Part shown: positions 10,124 to 16,212 of the stretch, in pieces
Layout of the letters: every line of letters begins with the position of its first letter
How positions within the stretch are numbered: the stretch's first letter is position 1
Source: an uncultured Lactobacillus sp.
Lineage (GTDB): Bacteria; Bacillota; Bacilli; Lactobacillales; Lactobacillaceae
Direction: 5' to 3'
Assembly (NCBI RefSeq): GCF_944327175.1
Contig: NZ_CALVGT010000041.1
Location: forward strand, 1 to 36,018
DNA length: 36,018 nt
Notes under the pieces: generated by a model
The model's database searches: none
What the model was told of the DNA's origin: nothing
The model's input: only the letters and a program-made list of their open reading frames with translations
Made by a program: the position numbers and the translations under genes

Positions 10124-10184
10124 ATGCAAAAAGCTTCCAGATTTTTCTGGAAGCTTTTTTGCTCTGCCTAAATTTAAGTTATAT
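10124..10184 (+). repeat. Direct repeat, left copy (contains htpX terminator)
   Basis: It begins ATGCAAAAAGCTTCC, includes the perfect hairpin AAAAAGCTTCCAGA/TCTGGAAGCTTTTTT that terminates htpX, and ends CTCTGCCTAAATTTAAG-TTATAT. The same 60 bases recur at 15087-15146, differing only by one extra G here after the T-run. The two copies bracket the Rgg/YcaO/ABC island. Confidence 0.9.
10127..10161 (+). terminator. Terminator of lemA-htpX
   Basis: A perfect 14-bp stem, AAAAAGCTTCCAGA with TCTGGAAGCTTTTT around TTTT, ends in a T-run starting 5 bases after the htpX stop. It is symmetrical and may act in both directions. Confidence 0.9.
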
Positions 10185-10203
10185 TTATCTCCCGTCTTCT
10201 ATT

Positions 10204-10212
10204 TGCTATAAT
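10204..10212 (+). promoter_or_regulatory. Extended -10 promoter of the rgg gene
   Basis: TGC-TATAAT is an extended -10 element 52 bases upstream of the ATG at 10264. No clear -35 is present, which extended -10 promoters tolerate. Confidence 0.6.
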
Positions 10213-10263
10213 GCACGTATTAAATTACTGTTTTTTCAAAAAAGTGTATTAGAGGAAAGAAAA

Positions 10264-11103
10264 ATGTACGGACAATATTTTAAAAGACTGCGGAATTATA
10301 AGAAGATGACGCTAGGTGAAGCAGCAAAAGATATTACTTCAAGCCCTGCCTTGTCACGCTGGGAAAATGATGTCGATGATATTCGGCTCAAAAAGTTTTT
10401 AGCCTTATTAGACCGGGTGGGGGTCACCCCCCGGGAGTTTTTTGCGTATACGGAAGTCCAAGGAAATCTAGACAGCTCCTACTATGATGAGCTGCAATTG
10501 CTCATCCAGCAAAAAGACGGGCAAAGGCTTCATCAGATCTTTTTACGTCAAATCAGTAGCTTTCATCAAACAAAAGATCCAGATATTTTAGGAAAGGCAG
10601 TCGCCGCTGCCAACAGCTATTTCACCTTGACTAAAATAAACTGTTTAACAGACACTGACCTAGAGAGTTTTAAAGATTTACTGCTTGATAGCGAGTACTT
10701 AGATTTCAAAAGCCTGCGTTTTCTTGAAAATTCTGTTTATTTGATTGACTCTGACCTGCTCATTTCGTACAGCAGTAAAATCATCCACCAACTCAACCAC
10801 TTAGAACAGGTAGACTACGAACTATATTTAAACGCTTGGACAGCCCTAACCAATATTATTTTCAGCCTAATTCGTCAAAAACAAGCTTCTGCCGCAGACA
10901 GGATTCTAGACCGGCTGCTGCCAATCGATCTGCCGCAACAAATGGCTGCTTTTAAAATTAGAATCGTTTTTTTCAAAAAATTGCTGGCTTACCGGGAAAG
11001 CGGCGATGACCGGGAAATCAATGCTTTTTTAAAGTCTCTAACTGAAATTGGGCTAAGCAATTTGGTAAGTGAACTTTTGAATTATTGGGATAGCGTTTAC
11101 TGA
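10264..11103 (+). CDS. Rgg/GadR/MutR-type transcriptional regulator
   Basis: The 279-aa product starts at the ATG at 10264 behind AGAGGAAAG; the open frame extends upstream through the htpX tail and promoter, which is not the start. Residues 5-60 form an XRE-type helix-turn-helix (FKRLRNYKKMTLGEAA, then SRWENDVDDIRLKKFLALL with the Rgg-typical VTPREFF). The remaining 220 residues are a helical repeat domain as in peptide-sensing Rgg proteins. Rgg regulators bind short imported pheromones and control adjacent peptide or bacteriocin genes. The gene converges on ycaO and overlaps its end by 7 bases. It most likely controls the unit starting at 14987; no obvious pheromone gene is adjacent. Confidence 0.85.
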   Translation: MYGQYFKRLRNYKKMTLGEAAKDITSSPALSRWENDVDDIRLKKFLALLDRVGVTPREFFAYTEVQGNLDSSYYDELQLLIQQKDGQRLHQIFLRQISSFHQTKDPDILGKAVAAANSYFTLTKINCLTDTDLESFKDLLLDSEYLDFKSLRFLENSVYLIDSDLLISYSSKIIHQLNHLEQVDYELYLNAWTALTNIIFSLIRQKQASAADRILDRLLPIDLPQQMAAFKIRIVFFKKLLAYRESGDDREINAFLKSLTEIGLSNLVSELLNYWDSVY

Positions 11104-12287
11104 TAGCCGTTGCTACACAGCCTAGGCGTTACAATCTGACCTTCAAAAATCAGATTAAAGCGTTCAAAATGAGGTATTAACGACTGAACGAGTACAAAGT
11201 CCGGATCTTCTTTCACCACTCGATAATAAATTTTCCTGCCTTCTTGTCTAAGCCTTTCTCTCTCATAGCTGATCATTTGATCAACTTCTTTTGCATATAT
11301 ATCATATTGACGATATCTCATGCTAGCCAATTTTTTTGTAAAAGTTAGAGACAGCATCTTCTTCACAGGAGAGATTTCAGACCATATCAAGTTCAAACGC
11401 TTCCGCAATTGTTGACTTTCACTTTCCTCTTTTACGGATACTAATTGATATGCCTCCGTGAGCGACCTCATTATAGCGTATCGCTCATCTACTGAGCTCC
11501 CTGAACCGTAAATTGGGAGAATATCGCTACCTTGAGATAGAACAGCGGTAAAATAGGTCGGTATTTGATAGCTATTAATTACTTTTACCAGTATTACTTC
11601 TGCATCTGCCGTATCTTTTAATCCTAGATAGATTTTGTACAAATCCTTAGGCAAAGATTTAGGAATCATCTTAAATGCAGTTACCGAGTTTTCCTTAATA
11701 CCTAATCCGTATTTGATGATGAACCTTGAAATACTGTCTCTTTCAATCAATTCGTTAATGGAATGAAGCAAAGCTTCATTTACAGTTGATCCACTTGCAT
11801 AGCCACTATCAGAAGCATACTGGTAGGCATGAGTGTTTATCGAAACACTATCGTCTATGAAATTAACGTCGCTTAAAAAGGATGGATAATAGACTTCTTT
11901 TGAACTTTCGATATCGACAAACGAATCTACTGTCAGCTTTGTATTTTTTGAAAGTTGATTTAAAGCTGGATCATCCAAAAAATCGAGATCTTGTTCCATA
12001 ATCTGCGACACAAGCACTCGTCGCTTAGCCAAATGTGTCTGCGAGTTATAAAACAAATGCTCTATACTCTCGAATTCAGCTCCTAATACGGGCATATGAC
12101 CCATCCCTTTGCCCATTCCAACGGAAACTTGTTGCTTTTTTGAGTCGCTTAAAATACACTGAACAGTTTGCAAGGCTAGATTAGCAGAAACCCACATTCT
12201 ATAGTCAGCAGTTAAATGCAGTCGATTAATTAACTCAAGCCAATTAGTATGTGCATCAGCATCTGGCACTTCTCTCTCAATTTGCAA
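11097..12287 (-). CDS. Stand-alone YcaO-domain peptide-modifying enzyme
   Basis: The likely start is the TTG at 12287, behind GGAGGG, giving 396 aa. The YcaO ATP-binding core is visible: SG at 165-166, Glu171-Ala, Glu179 and Ile-Glu182-Arg183-Asp in the first motif, and GSGSS...RSLTEAYQ (Arg274, Glu278, Gln281) in the second. YcaO enzymes use ATP to activate a peptide backbone amide, giving azolines, thioamides or amidines. The C-terminus ends VTPRLCSNGYQ, lacking the PxPxP tail common in azoline-forming members. No fused or adjacent E1-like, TfuA or dehydrogenase gene exists. The gene follows the 50-aa peptide after a hairpin. It is AT-rich compared with core genes. The YcaO assignment is firm; the reaction is unknown. 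Confidence 0.85.
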   Translation of the reverse strand: MQIEREVPDADAHTNWLELINRLHLTADYRMWVSANLALQTVQCILSDSKKQQVSVGMGKGMGHMPVLGAEFESIEHLFYNSQTHLAKRRVLVSQIMEQDLDFLDDPALNQLSKNTKLTVDSFVDIESSKEVYYPSFLSDVNFIDDSVSINTHAYQYASDSGYASGSTVNEALLHSINELIERDSISRFIIKYGLGIKENSVTAFKMIPKSLPKDLYKIYLGLKDTADAEVILVKVINSYQIPTYFTAVLSQGSDILPIYGSGSSVDERYAIMRSLTEAYQLVSVKEESESQQLRKRLNLIWSEISPVKKMLSLTFTKKLASMRYRQYDIYAKEVDQMISYERERLRQEGRKIYYRVVKEDPDFVLVQSLIPHFERFNLIFEGQIVTPRLCSNGYQ

Positions 12288-12306
12288 ATCTTTCCCTCCA
12301 TAAAAT

Positions 12307-12360
12307 AAAAGATCACGCAATATTGGCTTTTCTAAAAGGTGCCATTAGCCGTGATCTTTT
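12307..12360 (-). terminator. Readthrough hairpin between the peptide and ycaO
   Basis: On the minus strand an 11-bp perfect stem, AAAAGATCACG with CGTGATCTTTT, encloses a further TGGC/GCCA and CTTTT/AAAAG pairing. It is followed by ATTTTA and then directly by the GGAGGG of ycaO. It starts right after the peptide stop. This layout typically lets much more peptide mRNA than enzyme mRNA be made. Confidence 0.8.
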
Positions 12361-12365
12361 CTACT

Positions 12366-12518
12366 CTACTTAACTACTTCTGTTTTAACATTGTTTAATT
12401 GGTCAGATAACTCTTTCGGACTGCTCATTAAAGCGTTGAAGAAGTTCAATTCTTCATCATTTAAGCCTTCTACAAGAAATGGTCCGCCTTTTGTTAATTC
12501 AGTTCTAGTACGTCCCAT
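12366..12518 (-). CDS. Putative RiPP precursor peptide, 50 aa
   Basis: The ATG at 12518 has an excellent AAAGGAGG site; an upstream in-frame start would lie inside it. The peptide starts MGRTRTELTKGGPF, continues with an acidic helical middle (DEELNFF), and ends with SSPKELSDQ and TEVVK. It has no cysteine; Ser32, Ser33, Ser38 and Thr46 are the only hydroxyl residues in the C-terminal half. A Gly-Gly occurs at 11-12 but without the usual double-glycine leader spacing. The FFNALMSSPKELSDQL stretch loosely resembles Nif11-type leaders. It lies between an exporter and a YcaO enzyme and is followed by an attenuating hairpin, so a precursor role is inferred from context. Confidence 0.7.
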   Translation of the reverse strand: MGRTRTELTKGGPFLVEGLNDEELNFFNALMSSPKELSDQLNNVKTEVVK

Positions 12519-12550
12519 ATCACAACACCTCCTTTCTAGATAATCATTTC

Positions 12551-13315
12551 TCAATTAGCCGATGAATAATGCCTCAGCCCCCATTGCCAAAACTTGACCG
12601 AGAGCCAGTAAAGGATAGTCAGAAAAACCAGAAGATATATGAGCAGACTTTTTCCCCGTCCTAGCAGCCAGTCCACCGGCAAGTTGCTGACTAGCAAAAG
12701 TGGAATAATCCATGTAAAAAGCTGTTGAATAACTCGCGGAAAAATCTGTTTTGGCCGTCCGGCCAAGCTGACCAGATCTTCTACAATCCCTCCCAAAGCC
12801 GTCAGTCCTTCAAACCAAAAAAGCAAAGTTAAGCACAATTGGTTCAAAATAAAAATCAAGGCTGCAGGTAAGACGATCATGCAATTGATCAGCATGATCT
12901 GGCCAAAACTTGCCCCTTCGCGAATAAGGTAATAAGCCAGTAGTCCAAGCGAAAGCAGTAAGTTGAAAAAACTTGGAATATCCAAACTTCTGCCAACAGC
13001 CAGCCAATAACTTGAGCTTGGCCGAACCAGCAGATAGTCGAGATTGCCTTCCAAAATATCTTCACCTAGTCCTTCATGGCCTAAAATAAAAAACAAATTG
13101 TAAAGATAAGTCGCGCTGTTCATGAAACTAATCATGATAAAATAACGGTTTGCCGTCCAACCAGCCAGATTCTCCCTCTGACTAAAGTAAATCTGCCCCG
13201 TAAACAGCTCAATCAGCAGAAAGACAGCTGCCAAAACAAAAGTAATAATGCTAGTACCGCGGTAGATCATAAACTCAGCTAAGCTTTGCCGCCAAATAGC
13301 CTTGATCGTTCTCAT
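12551..13315 (-). CDS. ABC-2 type permease subunit (DUF990-like), second
   Basis: The 254-aa protein has six predicted membrane helices and the stretch GLGEDILEGNLDYLLVRPSSS, which resembles the conserved segment of DUF990-type ABC-2 permeases. Its ATG overlaps the stop of the preceding permease by 4 bases (ATGA), so the two are translationally coupled and probably form a heterodimer. The stop lies 32 bases before the peptide gene. Probable role: export of, or immunity to, the modified peptide. The transported molecule is inferred from context only. Confidence 0.82.
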   Translation of the reverse strand: MRTIKAIWRQSLAEFMIYRGTSIITFVLAAVFLLIELFTGQIYFSQRENLAGWTANRYFIMISFMNSATYLYNLFFILGHEGLGEDILEGNLDYLLVRPSSSYWLAVGRSLDIPSFFNLLLSLGLLAYYLIREGASFGQIMLINCMIVLPAALIFILNQLCLTLLFWFEGLTALGGIVEDLVSLAGRPKQIFPRVIQQLFTWIIPLLLVSNLPVDWLLGRGKSLLIYLLVFLTILYWLSVKFWQWGLRHYSSAN

Positions 13316-14058
13316 GCTCCTGCCCCCTCAAAAGTTTTAATACCTTTTTGGAATAAAGCCTTTTCCAGCAGCACACTAAAGAGCAGCCAACAACAAGCGG
13401 CAAGGCAATTTGCAAAAAAATCACGCTGGTCTGCTGATCCTGTCAACAAGCGCGCTGGAAAATCCGTTACCAGAGAAAAAGGATTGTACTTCAAATATTG
13501 GTAAGCCGGACCCAGGAGTTTCAAAGGAAAATATAAGCCGCCTAGCAGCAAGTAAACCGCATTGATCCCACTTCTAAGCGGCCACATATTGATCAGCCAA
13601 AAGCTGAGCATGGCTAAAAGCATCATTAAACTGAAAAACATCAGACTGCTCAAAGCCAGGTAGATCAAGAGCAAAAGCATTAAGCCAGCGCTTTTTACTA
13701 AAAAAAGGACCAAGAGCAGGTATAGCAACAAAAGCGGAGTCTGCAGGCCTAAATTGTAATTGAACAGGTACCAATACAAAGATAACGGCCTCGTTAAATA
13801 GAGGGATAGATTCCCAGTTTTTACCAGATCCGCAAACTGAAAAACTGGCCCAGTCGTAAAAATCAGACTAATCAGATTGGTTGCCAACAAGTAGCGAGCC
13901 ATTTGCTGAAAGTTGCTGGACTCTGCCAAAATAAACTTCCATATTAAAACGGTAACCAGCAGACTTACCAGTTGCAAGGCCAGCTTCATAACCGTATTGG
14001 CCCGGTAGATCAAACTGTTTTTTAAGCCAAGATAATAAACTGGCAGATATTTTCTCAT
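13312..14058 (-). CDS. ABC-2 type permease subunit (DUF990-like), first
   Basis: The 248-aa protein has six predicted membrane helices and the segment FADLVKTGNLSLYLTRPLSLYW, the counterpart of the VRP segment in its partner (a KTG-L-x-x-L-x-RP pattern). The ATG overlaps the ATPase stop by 4 bases. The one ATPase plus two dissimilar permeases layout is that of heteromeric ABC-2 exporters of the DUF990 group, which often serve antimicrobial peptide efflux or self-protection. Confidence 0.82.
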   Translation of the reverse strand: MRKYLPVYYLGLKNSLIYRANTVMKLALQLVSLLVTVLIWKFILAESSNFQQMARYLLATNLISLIFTTGPVFQFADLVKTGNLSLYLTRPLSLYWYLFNYNLGLQTPLLLLYLLLVLFLVKSAGLMLLLLIYLALSSLMFFSLMMLLAMLSFWLINMWPLRSGINAVYLLLGGLYFPLKLLGPAYQYLKYNPFSLVTDFPARLLTGSADQRDFFANCLAACCWLLFSVLLEKALFQKGIKTFEGAGA

Positions 14059-14987
14059 TTTTTCTCTCTTTGATATATTTTCAAGATAACTTCTTCAATT
14101 GATATCCCATTTTTGCTCAAATAAATGATCTGTTCCGGCTGAAATGCTTCCATCCTTACAAAGAGTTGCTGAGGATCATGAATAATTTCTTCGCGGACAT
14201 CTGCCTGGTCATTGACCCAATACTTCAAGCAATAGCTATCAGCTTGATCGATTTCTAGCGGCAGCTTATTCAAACTATCATCAAAAATCAGCTCCCCCTT
14301 ACTTAAAATTAGCAAGCGCTGGGCTAAGGCCTCAATGTCACGGACATTGTGCGAAGTTAAAATAATCGTCGTCTGATGTCGACGGTTTTCAGTTTTTAAA
14401 AAATCATAAATCTTCTCTTGCGTCAGCAGGTCCAGGCCAATAGTTGGCTCATCCAGAAACAGATAGCTTGGTTCATGAATCAAGGAGCAGGCAAGTTCAC
14501 AGCGAATCCTCTGGCCCAAAGATAATTTGCGGATCGGCTTTTTTACGATCTCGCAAATATCCAGCAAATCACACAATTCTTGCAGCCGGCTTTGGTAGCG
14601 GTCTGGCTTTAATTGATAAATGGCCGCCAGCATATTCAAAGTGTCAACAGCAGGCAAGTTCCAGGACAGCTGCGACTTTTGCCCAAACATGACCCCAATC
14701 TGCCGCAATAGTTCCTTTTGGCGACTTCCCGGAACTATCCCAGCCACTGTCACTTGACCGCTGCTCGGCTGGATAATCCCAGTCAGTAGCTTGGTTAGGG
14801 TCGTCTTTCCTGCTCCATTTGGGCCAATCAAGCCAATAATTTCACCATCTTTTATAGTTAAATTCAGATCTTTCAAGGCAGGCACCAGCTGGTATTTCCG
14901 GTGGAAGATATCTTGCAGAGCTCCCTTTAAGCCCGGTTCCTTGCTGAAGGTCCGGTAATCAAACGAAAGCTGGTCAATTTCAATCAC
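14055..14987 (-). CDS. ABC exporter ATPase of the peptide island
   Basis: The likely start is the GTG at 14987, with AGGAGG six bases upstream; the ATG at 15002 would lie upstream of that site. The 310-aa product has Walker A GPNGAGKTT (55-63), a Q-loop at about 103, a signature written LSLGQR (155-160), Walker B YLFLDEP (about 175-181) and the switch His in LTSHN. The N-terminal insertion before Walker A and the C-terminal 90-residue extension match the NatA/DrrA-like ATPases that pair with DUF990 permeases. It is the first gene of a unit running through two permeases, the peptide and ycaO. Confidence 0.88.
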   Translation of the reverse strand: MIEIDQLSFDYRTFSKEPGLKGALQDIFHRKYQLVPALKDLNLTIKDGEIIGLIGPNGAGKTTLTKLLTGIIQPSSGQVTVAGIVPGSRQKELLRQIGVMFGQKSQLSWNLPAVDTLNMLAAIYQLKPDRYQSRLQELCDLLDICEIVKKPIRKLSLGQRIRCELACSLIHEPSYLFLDEPTIGLDLLTQEKIYDFLKTENRRHQTTIILTSHNVRDIEALAQRLLILSKGELIFDDSLNKLPLEIDQADSYCLKYWVNDQADVREEIIHDPQQLFVRMEAFQPEQIIYLSKNGISIEEVILKIYQREKK

Positions 14988-15024
14988 TCTTCTCCTCCTC
15001 ATATGTTGTTAATAATTGCTTAAT

Positions 15025-15079
15025 ATTCTAGTGCTAAAACTGCTCCTCCATCCTCATTTTTCATATTTGAAAATTTTCA
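15025..15079 (-). promoter_or_regulatory. Promoter region of the ABC-peptide-ycaO unit with a palindrome
   Basis: On the minus strand a TAGAAT -10-like box (15030-15025) lacks a -35. A perfect 12-bp palindrome, TGAAAATTTTCA, lies at 15068-15079, centred about 55 bases upstream of the expected transcription start. A poor core promoter with an upstream palindrome suits an activated promoter; Rgg is the obvious candidate activator. No site has been demonstrated. Confidence 0.4.
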
Positions 15080-15086
15080 TCTTCTC

Positions 15087-15146
15087 ATGCAAAAAGCTTC
15101 CAGATTTTTCTGGAAGCTTTTTTCTCTGCCTAAATTTAAGTTATAT
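15087..15146 (+). repeat. Direct repeat, right copy
   Basis: This is the second copy of the 60-bp sequence that follows htpX, with the same hairpin AAAAAGCTTCCAGA/TCTGGAAGCTTTTTT and the same CTCTGCCTAAATTTAAG tail, one base shorter. Here the terminator hairpin does not follow any gene; the neighbouring ATPase gene is transcribed away from it. This suggests it arose by duplication at an insertion. Confidence 0.9.
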
Positions 15147-15371
15147 ACGCGTGGCACTAGTTAAAGAAGTTGAATCCATACCTCTGTAGGATGTAGCTGA
15201 TATTGTAAGTTAATACAATTATGGTTCAGTATAAATTCCTGAGTTAGCCGGCTGCATCGGCATCAAAGTGAGAAATGAAAATATGAAAAAGATTACCAAA
15301 TCTGCAATTTTTGTGATTTTTTGAACTATATCTGGCAAAATTTTTTAAGATTACGAGTTAGGAGGAAAGAA
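15147..15371 (+). other. AT-rich leader with a 13-codon hydrophobic mini-ORF
   Basis: The gap before the secreted-protein gene contains ATG at 15283 opening MKKITKSAIFVIF and a stop at 15322-15324, weakly preceded by GTGAGA. It resembles either a short hydrophobic pheromone or a decayed signal peptide. No convincing -35/-10 pair was seen. Confidence 0.3.
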
Positions 15372-15986
15372 ATGAATAATCTTAAGAAATCAAATATTTT
15401 CAAATTGTTAGTAGTTGCAGCCATTGCATTATCCTTTAACATGTTATATTACATAAATAAGGAGAACCTTAGTAGACTAGTTGTAAACGCGGAAGAAGGA
15501 GCTATTACCAAGGAATTCGATAGATCGTATGAAAAAGTTAATGATATTGATTCTAACAATTTATCTGCTGATGAAGTAGAAGAACTGAAAACATATGTTA
15601 AACTAGCACCTAAGGTTATTATTGCGGATGCTAACGAGGATTTGCCAGATGGAGAAATTCCAGGTGGCGATACTTTAGACTTATCTGAGGAAGTTGATGC
15701 AAGCGTAGCCAGTACAATTGGCAAGAAATTAATTAAGAAATTTGGCCAAAAATTTGTAACCAAGAAATTGCCACGAATAATCTATGGCAAATTGCCAAAA
15801 GCTGTCATCAAAAAAATCACATTAAAGAAGTTCGAAAAAGTTTGGAATGATCTTTTCTTAGGTAGTGTAGCAGGAAAAGTCAGCGAACAGGCATATAATT
15901 ATATGGTGAAGAACCATGTGCCGAAGTGGGCGGCAAAATCAGCAGCTGCTGTGTTATATGGTATAATTTGGCATTATCTAAATTAA
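15372..15986 (+). CDS. Secreted or anchored cationic protein, possible bacteriocin/toxin
   Basis: The start is the ATG at 15372 behind TAGGAGGAAAG; 204 aa. Residues 5-27 form a signal peptide or membrane anchor. An acidic stretch (about 40-115, rich in Asp/Glu) is followed by a strongly basic region (about 118-165: many Lys pairs such as KKLIKKFGQKF) and a helical end finishing GIIWHYLN. An acidic propart before a cationic, amphipathic C-terminal half is the layout of some secreted antimicrobial proteins, but I recognise no family. The gene is AT-rich, unlike core genes here. The next gene, 13 bases downstream, is a small two-helix membrane protein, fitting an effector-immunity pair. Confidence 0.7.
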   Translation: MNNLKKSNIFKLLVVAAIALSFNMLYYINKENLSRLVVNAEEGAITKEFDRSYEKVNDIDSNNLSADEVEELKTYVKLAPKVIIADANEDLPDGEIPGGDTLDLSEEVDASVASTIGKKLIKKFGQKFVTKKLPRIIYGKLPKAVIKKITLKKFEKVWNDLFLGSVAGKVSEQAYNYMVKNHVPKWAAKSAAAVLYGIIWHYLN

Positions 15987-15999
15987 GATGGGAGAAAAT

Positions 16000-16212
16000 A
16001 TGGATAAGCTAAAAAAGAAAATGCCGAAAAATAAGTATGCAAGAGCTGCTATCTCATTGACAATCTTTTTTGCCTGCATTCTGCCAATCCAATACTTATT
16101 TGAGAAATTGTCATTTAGTACATTTTGGTCAAACTTTCTCGGCTTAACTATTGGTGTGTACCTCTTTCGGAAAATCATCGTTGCTTTGGGAATTCAACGA
16201 CACAATTTTTAA
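16000..16212 (+). CDS. Small two-helix membrane protein, possible immunity protein
   Basis: The ATG at 16000 is preceded by GGGAG, better placed than the in-frame ATG at 15988; 70 aa. The N-terminus is very basic (KLKKKMPKNKYAR), followed by two membrane helices at about 17-35 and 41-60. It lies 13 bases after the secreted cationic protein and ends at a terminator. Small two-helix proteins of this kind are typical bacteriocin immunity proteins, but this role is inferred only from position and size. Confidence 0.65.
   Translation: MDKLKKKMPKNKYARAAISLTIFFACILPIQYLFEKLSFSTFWSNFLGLTIGVYLFRKIIVALGIQRHNF

Follow-up and report, generated by a model that had tools for sequence, protein, structure and literature searches.

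A repeat-bounded Lactobacillus island with a standalone YcaO enzyme and a putative precursor of a rare, cross-phylum MGxxR[TS]E peptide family

Gene clusters in which a YcaO enzyme acts on a ribosomally synthesised and post-translationally modified peptide (RiPP) are known as a kind, and the function of most standalone YcaO enzymes is described as unknown (PMC8442711). In bottromycin biosynthesis the precursor BtmD loses its starting Met, the residue-4 carbonyl is the presumed point of attack for Gly1, and the YcaO enzyme BtmF together with BtmI gives the macroamidine (PMC5103208). Streptamidine, a type found in Actinobacteria and six Firmicutes, also carries an amidine, whose carbonyl (residue 2) lies immediately before a conserved Ser; a ring formed on this Ser is the intermediate suggested for both streptamidine and klebsazolicin (PMC8442711). 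Enzymes of the family PF12640 convert Arg to ornithine in RiPP precursors, and an uncharacterised arginase-linked precursor type has been named 'MGXRRSSE' (PMC12703449). This paper deals with an island of six genes in DNA of an uncultured Lactobacillus sp. (assembly GCF_944327175.1, contig NZ_CALVGT010000041.1, positions 1 to 36,018; the window means this whole stretch of 36,018 nucleotides), in which a standalone YcaO enzyme lies beside a 50-residue peptide, the genes of an ATP-binding cassette (ABC) exporter and a regulator of Rgg type.

The window shares with bottromycin (BtmD, BtmF) a precursor starting with MG and a standalone YcaO without E1 or TfuA, and the N-terminal core with a follower, known in bottromycin, would apply here as well. 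Unlike that cluster, the island carries no second YcaO, radical-SAM methyltransferase, amidohydrolase or P450 among its genes, its core differs, and its peptide did not match the bottromycin precursor model NF033414, for which a Micromonospora control (L065) gave 103 bits. With streptamidine it has in common a precursor lacking a Ser/Thr/Cys-rich core, a standalone YcaO and, if the proposal below is right, an N-terminal amidine (PMC8442711). It is set apart by description, AmiD being outside our scores and tree: the streptamidine core lies between leader and follower, its ring is six-membered and closed on the residue-2 carbonyl, and its formation needs, besides AmiD with its proline-rich C-terminus, a dehydrogenase, a hydrolase and AmiB, for which an E1-like fold is predicted (PMC8442711). 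Azole-type (SagD) clusters have the YcaO fold in common with the window, but they possess an E1-like partner, often a dehydrogenase, a PxPxP tail and a clade of their own. E. coli YcaO likewise shares the fold, without useful sequence similarity (expect value, E, 0.15; 7 bits), and acts on uL16 (PMC13063428), with no peptide cassette.

It is proposed, with a probability of about 0.5, that the island is a member of a cross-phylum RiPP family characterised by an N-terminal core, a follower and a macroamidine. As seen in sequence, the family consists of a short MGxxR[TS]E precursor near a standalone YcaO; its Bacillota form mostly adds a dedicated ABC-2 exporter and sometimes a PF12640 protein of peptide-arginase type. 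Beside related YcaO genes 13 distinct peptides start with MGxxR[TS]E and differ elsewhere, originating from Bacillota, Vibrio plasmids, Gardnerella, Mycolicibacterium and a metagenome-assembled genome (MAG) of Paceibacterota. In this set the peptide of Pseudobutyrivibrio and Butyrivibrio is counted once, and a fourteenth, variant precursor (MGKASTEIS..., from G1260, a genome found by its YcaO) is omitted. Residues 2-9 agree on average at 4.44 of 8 positions against 0.53 in 200 shuffles (sd 0.08, maximum 0.81), and residues 10-29 agree at 0.56 per 8. The Ser/Thr at residue 6, counted with Met, is invariant in all 13 and in the variant. A loose pattern (M, one of GASTKN, two free positions, R/K, T/S, E/D, then I/L/V/M), applied to open reading frames (ORFs) below 130 aa, matched only within YcaO cassettes among 73 loci, and Gly, Arg over Lys and Glu over Asp were invariant although the pattern did not demand them. 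The block MGRTRTE is common to the window and Gardnerella, and Mycolicibacterium has MGITRTE; the YcaO enzymes of these three are far apart in the tree. A search of plasmids with the peptide alone gave three weak Rhizobium matches (E 3 to 9).

The peptide of the window has no Cys, as the original prediction had it, and lack of Cys does not define the family: one Cys is present in 7 of the 13 precursors, always later than residue nine. MG-start ORFs with a ribosome-binding site (RBS) number 26 of 66 upstream of YcaO and 3 of 44 on the opposite strand (Fisher 1e-4), and 23 of 32 loci have an MG-start ORF; this count includes nested starts, at least one of the 26 being an internal start in the window's permease, is uncorrected for kinship and omits the duplicate genomes L047, L051, L061, L064 and L071.

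The family is widespread but rare. A YcaO match was obtained in 3 of 61 genomes of the genus, namely the window, G047 and G005, and G047 has the gene order of the window, a YcaO of 41% identity and the peptide MGSKRTEIN.... In the family search 5 of 397 genomes matched: the clear members are the window and L. apodemi (G149), and the rest comprises G401 (ABC genes with a decayed YcaO) and the weak, partial matches of G005 and G384 (E 4e-4 for the latter). The order search matched 17 of 395 genomes with four clear members, among them Ignavigranum (G670) and Atopobacter (G553); the class search matched 101 of 398 at E 1e-3, with more than 100 bits for the window and G968 only; and at phylum level 2 of 398, the window and G1260, matched at E 1e-20. 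G005 and the weak matches at order and class level are azole-type by eye and were excluded from the family. A conserved partnership of peptide and YcaO in other Lactobacillaceae, on which the original prediction had made its case depend, was thus found, for instance in G047 and L. apodemi.

A first scan of the genome_contigs collection gave 92 stretches, none of them confirmed; a second, with five YcaO queries, gave 27 loci of 115, three of which belong to genomes already found (L. apodemi, Ignavigranum, Atopobacter). The 27 loci fall into 11 with MGxxR[TS]E, 12 with another upstream MG-start peptide and 4 in which no MG-start peptide was found (L056, L059, L070, L073). The 11 are L. apodemi, Ignavigranum, Atopobacter, Tissierella, where the peptide stands at the head of the cluster, 2.8 kb before YcaO, Paenibacillus, two Pseudobutyrivibrio, Butyrivibrio, the Paceibacterota MAG, Gardnerella and Mycolicibacterium iranicum. 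Two of the 12 are bottromycin clusters (L060, Streptomyces scabiei; L065, Micromonospora), and the Herbaspirillum peptide, another of them, is doubtful. Two Vibrio plasmids, found by the YcaO search, carry MGNKRSEIN... and MGKKRSEIN... directly upstream of YcaO. An ABC ATPase and two permeases, in varying order and identified by phmmer to the window proteins, accompany YcaO in G047, L. apodemi, Ignavigranum, Atopobacter, Tissierella, Paenibacillus and Pseudobutyrivibrio/Butyrivibrio; the ABC-2 exporter is common to the cassettes of 8 of the 13-14 distinct peptides, 3 of these 8 adding a PF12640 protein. On the Vibrio plasmids the exporter is of a fused membrane-ATPase ABC kind; a major facilitator superfamily (MFS) protein takes its place in Gardnerella and Alloscardovia. 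As gene set and peptide recur in other genera, more than chance is involved. It is therefore very probable that the locus encodes a RiPP and that the YcaO acts on the 50-aa peptide, the substrate originally predicted, a like peptide being kept beside YcaO homologues in other genera and phyla.

The predicted structure of the window's enzyme (mean predicted local distance difference test score, pLDDT, 84.8; predicted template modelling score, pTM, 0.87) has the YcaO fold, and a fold search returned 33 PDB chains at E below 0.001, all YcaO or heterocyclase entries, among them the YcaO proteins of M. jannaschii (TM-score up to 0.68 by target) and M. kandleri (0.70). Glu84, Glu87, Asn189, Glu190, Glu193, Arg194, Arg285 and Glu289 are invariant in ten members; these residues, we assume, include ATP and metal ligands. 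By BLASTP the enzyme matches the two BtmF proteins over most of the length (E 4e-24 and 3e-23). Matches with the azole-type enzymes are weak and partial, the best having E 3e-7; E. coli YcaO gives 0.15, and BtmE either 2.4 or no match. With a profile of the three Lactobacillaceae YcaOs the scores were 103 and 99 bits for BtmF, 57 for the only TfuA-type enzyme in the set, 29-52 for azole-type rows, 7 for E. coli and -0.1 and -1.6 for BtmE. BtmE and BtmF were assigned in the two bottromycin clusters by gene order and lettering. Because relatives had been fetched by similarity, the fair contrasts are those between BtmF and BtmE within one cluster and those with the E. coli, TfuA-type and azole-type rows. 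BtmF is thus the best-scoring characterised YcaO by sequence among those compared, AmiD not being one of them.

The tree has 42 rows and omits L073 (a 17-aa piece), the five duplicate genomes named above, the weak matches L036, L040, L041 and L043, and G968 and G1260; L012 (L. apodemi) is represented by its longer in-frame piece. The E. coli, azole-type and TfuA-type rows form one clade (100/99) without the window's YcaO, which excludes it from the E. coli-type clade that would have counted against the original prediction; the YcaO enzymes of the window, G047 and L. apodemi group together (100/99), and BtmE is a long branch among Streptomyces rows. An E. coli-type, azole-type or TfuA-type identity was rejected by scores and tree, together with the absence of any TfuA match across the genome. 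The kinship with BtmF is supported by the sequence scores and not by a resolved tree, since the deep branches are weak.

As for the chemistry, the conserved N-terminal residues, from 2 to about 9, probably are the core and the variable rest the follower. The housekeeping methionine aminopeptidase would remove Met and leave a free Gly1 amine; in bottromycin a dedicated Met removal is needed because the usual aminopeptidases handle MGP poorly (PMC5103208), and in the 13 peptides Gly is never followed by Pro. With the follower bound to it, the YcaO would then use ATP to activate a carbonyl of the backbone, the likeliest being the one of Arg4, directly ahead of the invariant Ser/Thr5; the Gly1 amine would attack it to form a macroamidine with loss of water (-18 Da), a cell protease would trim the follower, and the ABC-2 pump would export the product under Rgg-type control. 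The Arg4 carbonyl is proposed because bottromycin gives the position and streptamidine the neighbouring Ser/Thr, and both fit. By analogy with these systems an N-terminal amidine seems to us a little short of an even chance as the YcaO product, and Arg4 (numbered after Met loss) as its site is a tentative choice. The dedicated exporter and the adjacent Rgg suit a bacteriocin or a signal.

PF12640 proteins offer a second view of the conserved block. They are added in Ignavigranum (L044), Tissierella (L048) and both Pseudobutyrivibrio (L061, L062); the one of Ignavigranum scores 117 bits with the NCBIfam peptide arginase model, below its 350-bit cut-off. Arg stands at residue 4 (Met = 1) in 3 of the 3 distinct precursors with PF12640 and in 1 of the 10 without (Fisher 0.014), in a small table compiled by hand and uncorrected for kinship, where visual inspection, with Pfam run on some neighbours only, was the basis for scoring the ten other clusters as lacking PF12640. 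The presence of PF12640 thus tracks a residue within the conserved block, which agrees with an N-terminal core. The published type 'MGXRRSSE' resembles the arginase-bearing precursors found here (MGRRRTE, MGRRRSE, MGNRRSE) and, judged by these sequences, very probably is the PF12640-bearing subset; the window island has no PF12640 gene among its proteins and reads MGRTRTE. The main text of PMC12703449 does not contain the word 'YcaO'.

Several observations weigh against the proposed macroamidine family. The identity between the window YcaO and BtmF is only 24-25%, the Mycolicibacterium YcaO, which belongs to a motif peptide, reaches 54 bits in the profile and so falls under the TfuA-type row, and the deep branches among the standalone types are weak (45/69 at the root). 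A single clade for all YcaOs linked with MGxxR[TS]E was rejected by the approximately unbiased (AU) test with p-AU 4e-46. BtmF is assisted by the amidohydrolase BtmI, in whose absence cyclisation drops to traces (PMC5103208), although both bottromycin YcaOs work without a partner according to PMC8442711; the island has no BtmI-like amidohydrolase and no protease. The amidine rings of streptamidine and klebsazolicin occupy other positions. Selection enters the peptide set, because it was the loose pattern that first brought up 4 of the 13 (Tissierella, Paenibacillus, Pseudobutyrivibrio, Paceibacterota), and the remaining ones were chosen by eye from ORF lists near YcaOs. The follower is not uniformly acidic, its net charge ranging from -7 to +5, and the conserved N-terminus could instead be a recognition sequence.

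In RiPP precursors leaders are usually conserved and cores variable, and on this general ground the N-terminus might be a leader recognised by the YcaO and the variable C-terminus the core. We regard this conventional layout as unlikely: the conserved block begins exactly at residue 2, has only about 8 residues and is kept across distant YcaOs, the C-terminal parts have no shared modifiable pattern, the PF12640 protein goes with an Arg inside the block, and among the relatives that also have MG-start peptides is bottromycin, with its N-terminal core. An equally improbable alternative accepts the N-terminal core but lets the YcaO, without a partner and likewise with -18 Da, turn the invariant Ser/Thr, residue 6 counted with Met, into an oxazoline. 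The invariance of this residue in the 13 peptides and the G1260 variant is in its favour, as is the proposal that BtmE forms the thiazoline of bottromycin in a cluster without a cyclodehydratase partner (PMC5103208); neither BLASTP nor the profile search, however, shows BtmE to be similar to the window YcaO, the YcaO has no PxPxP tail and the island no E1 partner or dehydrogenase.

Rather less likely than either is thioamidation of the backbone near the core (+15.98 Da) with a sulfur source other than TfuA. E. coli YcaO has been reported to thioamidate the ribosomal protein uL16 (PMC13063428), M. jannaschii YcaO is among the nearest folds, the TfuA-type row with 57 bits stands above the azole-type rows in the profile, and the window YcaO scores 46 bits with the thioamidation model TIGR03266; this score is far below the cut-off (365), no TfuA is encoded in the genome and BtmF outscores the TfuA-type enzyme. 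The least probable idea, for which we see very little room, is that the YcaO does little more than cut the core from the follower as an ATP-dependent peptidase. It would suit an island without a protease, and a solved YcaO titled with ATP-dependent peptidase activity (7u58) matches the model, but that protein is distant and larger (13% identity) and the window would then be without any other modifying enzyme.

It had been argued from the missing partners that the YcaO either has a new chemistry or relies on a partner encoded at another site. The absence itself was borne out: E1-like, TfuA and dehydrogenase domains gave no match in the six island proteins (dehydrogenases were sought there and not genome-wide), no TfuA was matched across the genome, which has a single YcaO and an assembly about 96% complete, the YcaO gave no match to an E1 domain or a RiPP recognition element (RRE), and its end (...VTPRLCSNGYQ) has neither the PxPxP tail, as foreseen, nor a proline-rich stretch. 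The conclusion is nevertheless not required, because an E1- and TfuA-less chemistry, the BtmF macroamidine, is already known (PMC5103208, PMC8442711) and BtmF is the nearest characterised enzyme compared. The sole ThiF of the genome is on another contig and below the cut-offs of the thiazole/oxazole-modified microcin (TOMM) models (20.8 of 187.65 and 19.8 of 36.9 bits); it is unlikely as a partner, because it belongs to a separate operon and no gene of the kind was seen by eye in the other cassettes. That operon (G000 contig C32, L115, 6755-10804, minus strand) is RiPP-like and without YcaO, and comprises the ThiF protein of 372 aa, a 42-aa peptide that ends in TTNWYFI and is preceded by a strong RBS, an M16 peptidase-like protein and, by eye, an ABC exporter.

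The island is a 4.96-kb unit between two direct repeats, and all six genes (ATPase, two permeases, peptide, YcaO and the convergent Rgg regulator) are confirmed in the places and orientations earlier stated (Table 1). The repeats are near-identical, differing by one extra base and at most one substitution, and they coincide with the limits 10124 and 15146 of the original prediction, in which repeats went unmentioned. The YcaO start probably is TTG 12287, preceded by GGAGG and giving MQIERE..., and not 12320, because relatives start nearby and residues 1-10 of the longer reading have pLDDT below 50 in the model; GTG 14987 probably starts the ATPase. The permeases match PF06182 at E 2.3e-32 and 5.7e-14, and the regulator scores 33.1 bits with TIGR01716, below its cut-off of 36.9. 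Small ORFs are present near the Rgg gene, none of them convincing by eye as a gene for a pheromone of short hydrophobic peptide (SHP) type.

Table 1. Features of the island, in window coordinates
Feature	Position	Strand	Remarks
Left direct repeat, 61 nt	10124..10184	+	contains hairpin terminator of upstream HtpX-like (M48) gene, z -5.8
Rgg/GadR/MutR-family regulator, 279 aa	10264..11103	+	Rgg_C PF21259, E 1e-7; convergent with peptide operon
YcaO, 396 aa from likely TTG start, standalone	11097..12287	-	PF02624, E 1.1e-23
Hairpin between precursor and YcaO	12290..12368	-	-20 kcal/mol, z -2.9
Putative precursor peptide, 50 aa, MGRTRTEL...	12366..12518	-	RBS AGGAGG
ABC-2 permease, 254 aa	12551..13315	-	PF06182
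ABC-2 permease, 248 aa	13312..14058	-	PF06182
ABC ATPase, likely GTG start	14055..14987	-	PF00005, E 5e-28
Right direct repeat, 60 nt	15087..15146	+	runs on into right flank seen at empty site

In the sister species G439 (L016) the left flank is present (92% over 1566 columns, repeat included); a single repeat copy follows, and next comes the right flank of the window (79% over 295 columns, repeat included, similarity stopping near 15374), and of the island DNA only an 80-nt match within the ATPase gene was found in this fragmented assembly (720 contigs, 7% contamination). As G439 has the flanks with a single repeat and no island, the sequences indicate a discrete insertion here or a deletion in G439. 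The G+C content is 37-44% across five 1-kb windows of the island, 45-54% in the left 3 kb, 33% in the first kb on the right and 51% in the next. The repeats take in the htpX terminator, and no recombinase is among the six island genes. A phage origin was set aside: one scan of viral_contigs, in which 28 stretches matched a pattern, confirmed no YcaO relative, and none was found in phages. Right of the island (15321-16212) lies an AT-rich ORF pair (221 and 74 aa) without a Pfam or NCBIfam match above cut-off.

The hairpin between precursor and YcaO possibly is a leaky terminator. Stronger hairpins stand at the same site in Ligilactobacillus apodemi (L012; z -6.4), Paenibacillus (L049; z -3.3) and Pseudobutyrivibrio (L062; z -4.2); none is evident in G047 (L005; z -1.5) or after the precursor of Tissierella (L048; z 0.1). 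Where it is present, the precursor could be made in excess of the enzyme.

Some further observations concern the relatives. The Bacillota YcaO of G968 (L111, 2547-8300; 402 aa, 283 bits) lies near a protein whose start by eye resembles bottromycin radical-SAM methyltransferases, and no MG precursor with the motif was seen there by eye. G1260 (L118, L119) has two YcaO matches, one partial, beside helix-turn-helix regulators, with the variant precursor upstream of the first. In L. apodemi (L012, 8058-9241) the YcaO frame is split near an A-run, and in B. fibrisolvens (L071) several cassette genes are in broken frames, in both cases by sequencing error or decay. Beside the decayed YcaO of G401 (L013, 6146-8996) the ABC genes are intact, as though the transporter alone had been retained, perhaps for immunity. 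Three Lachnospiraceae genomes (L061, L062, L071) have an identical precursor with mobilisation-type genes (by eye) upstream, which suggests a mobile element. Directly after the Paenibacillus turicensis cassette, on the other strand (L049, 11727-12590, minus), follows a pentapeptide-repeat protein (PF00805, E 8e-22), possibly an immunity gene, and a radical-SAM protein with an ABC exporter adjoins the Atopobacter cassette on the other strand (L045, 2636-5405), perhaps as a second RiPP-like pair. A cluster of thiopeptide/azole type by eye is found in another species of the genus (G005; L006, 3241-13763), and a plasmid of Vibrio sp. 16 (L076, 7607-9130) carries an annotated TcdA/TcdB-type glycosyltransferase domain protein one gene from YcaO.

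The literature searched, with most subscription papers outside it, never brings 'peptide arginase' and 'YcaO' together and has 'MGXRRSSE' in PMC12703449 only. The word 'undescribed' in the original prediction therefore has to be restricted: an arginase-linked type is already named there, uncharacterised and without YcaO in the main text of that paper. As far as shown by this literature, the occurrence of MGxxR[TS]E peptides with a partnerless BtmF-like YcaO across phyla, with PF12640 as an option, is new, and so, probably, is the conserved block as a core.

It may be conjectured, with considerable reserve, that MGxxR[TS]E peptides make up, across phyla, a family of cysteine-independent N-terminal macroamidines, in which a partnerless BtmF-type YcaO closes the ring between the Arg4 carbonyl and the Gly1 amine exposed by the housekeeping aminopeptidase, and in which a peptide arginase converts residue 3 to ornithine in some clusters; that Lactobacillus, Gardnerella, Vibrio and others share a core of about 7 residues, nearly fixed, while enzyme, follower and exporter change suggests one conserved molecular target or receptor. 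The window YcaO comes with a probable substrate that bears a sharp, testable motif, as a two-gene minimal system with a specific prediction of mass and site. If the proposal is true, lactobacilli, other Bacillota, Gardnerella and Vibrio plasmids would possess a minimal form of the macroamidine chemistry that has hitherto been linked with bottromycin and the tailoring enzymes of its cluster, and the peptide arginases would have one of their orphan precursor types explained. The near-identical core in distant phyla would then raise the question of its target.

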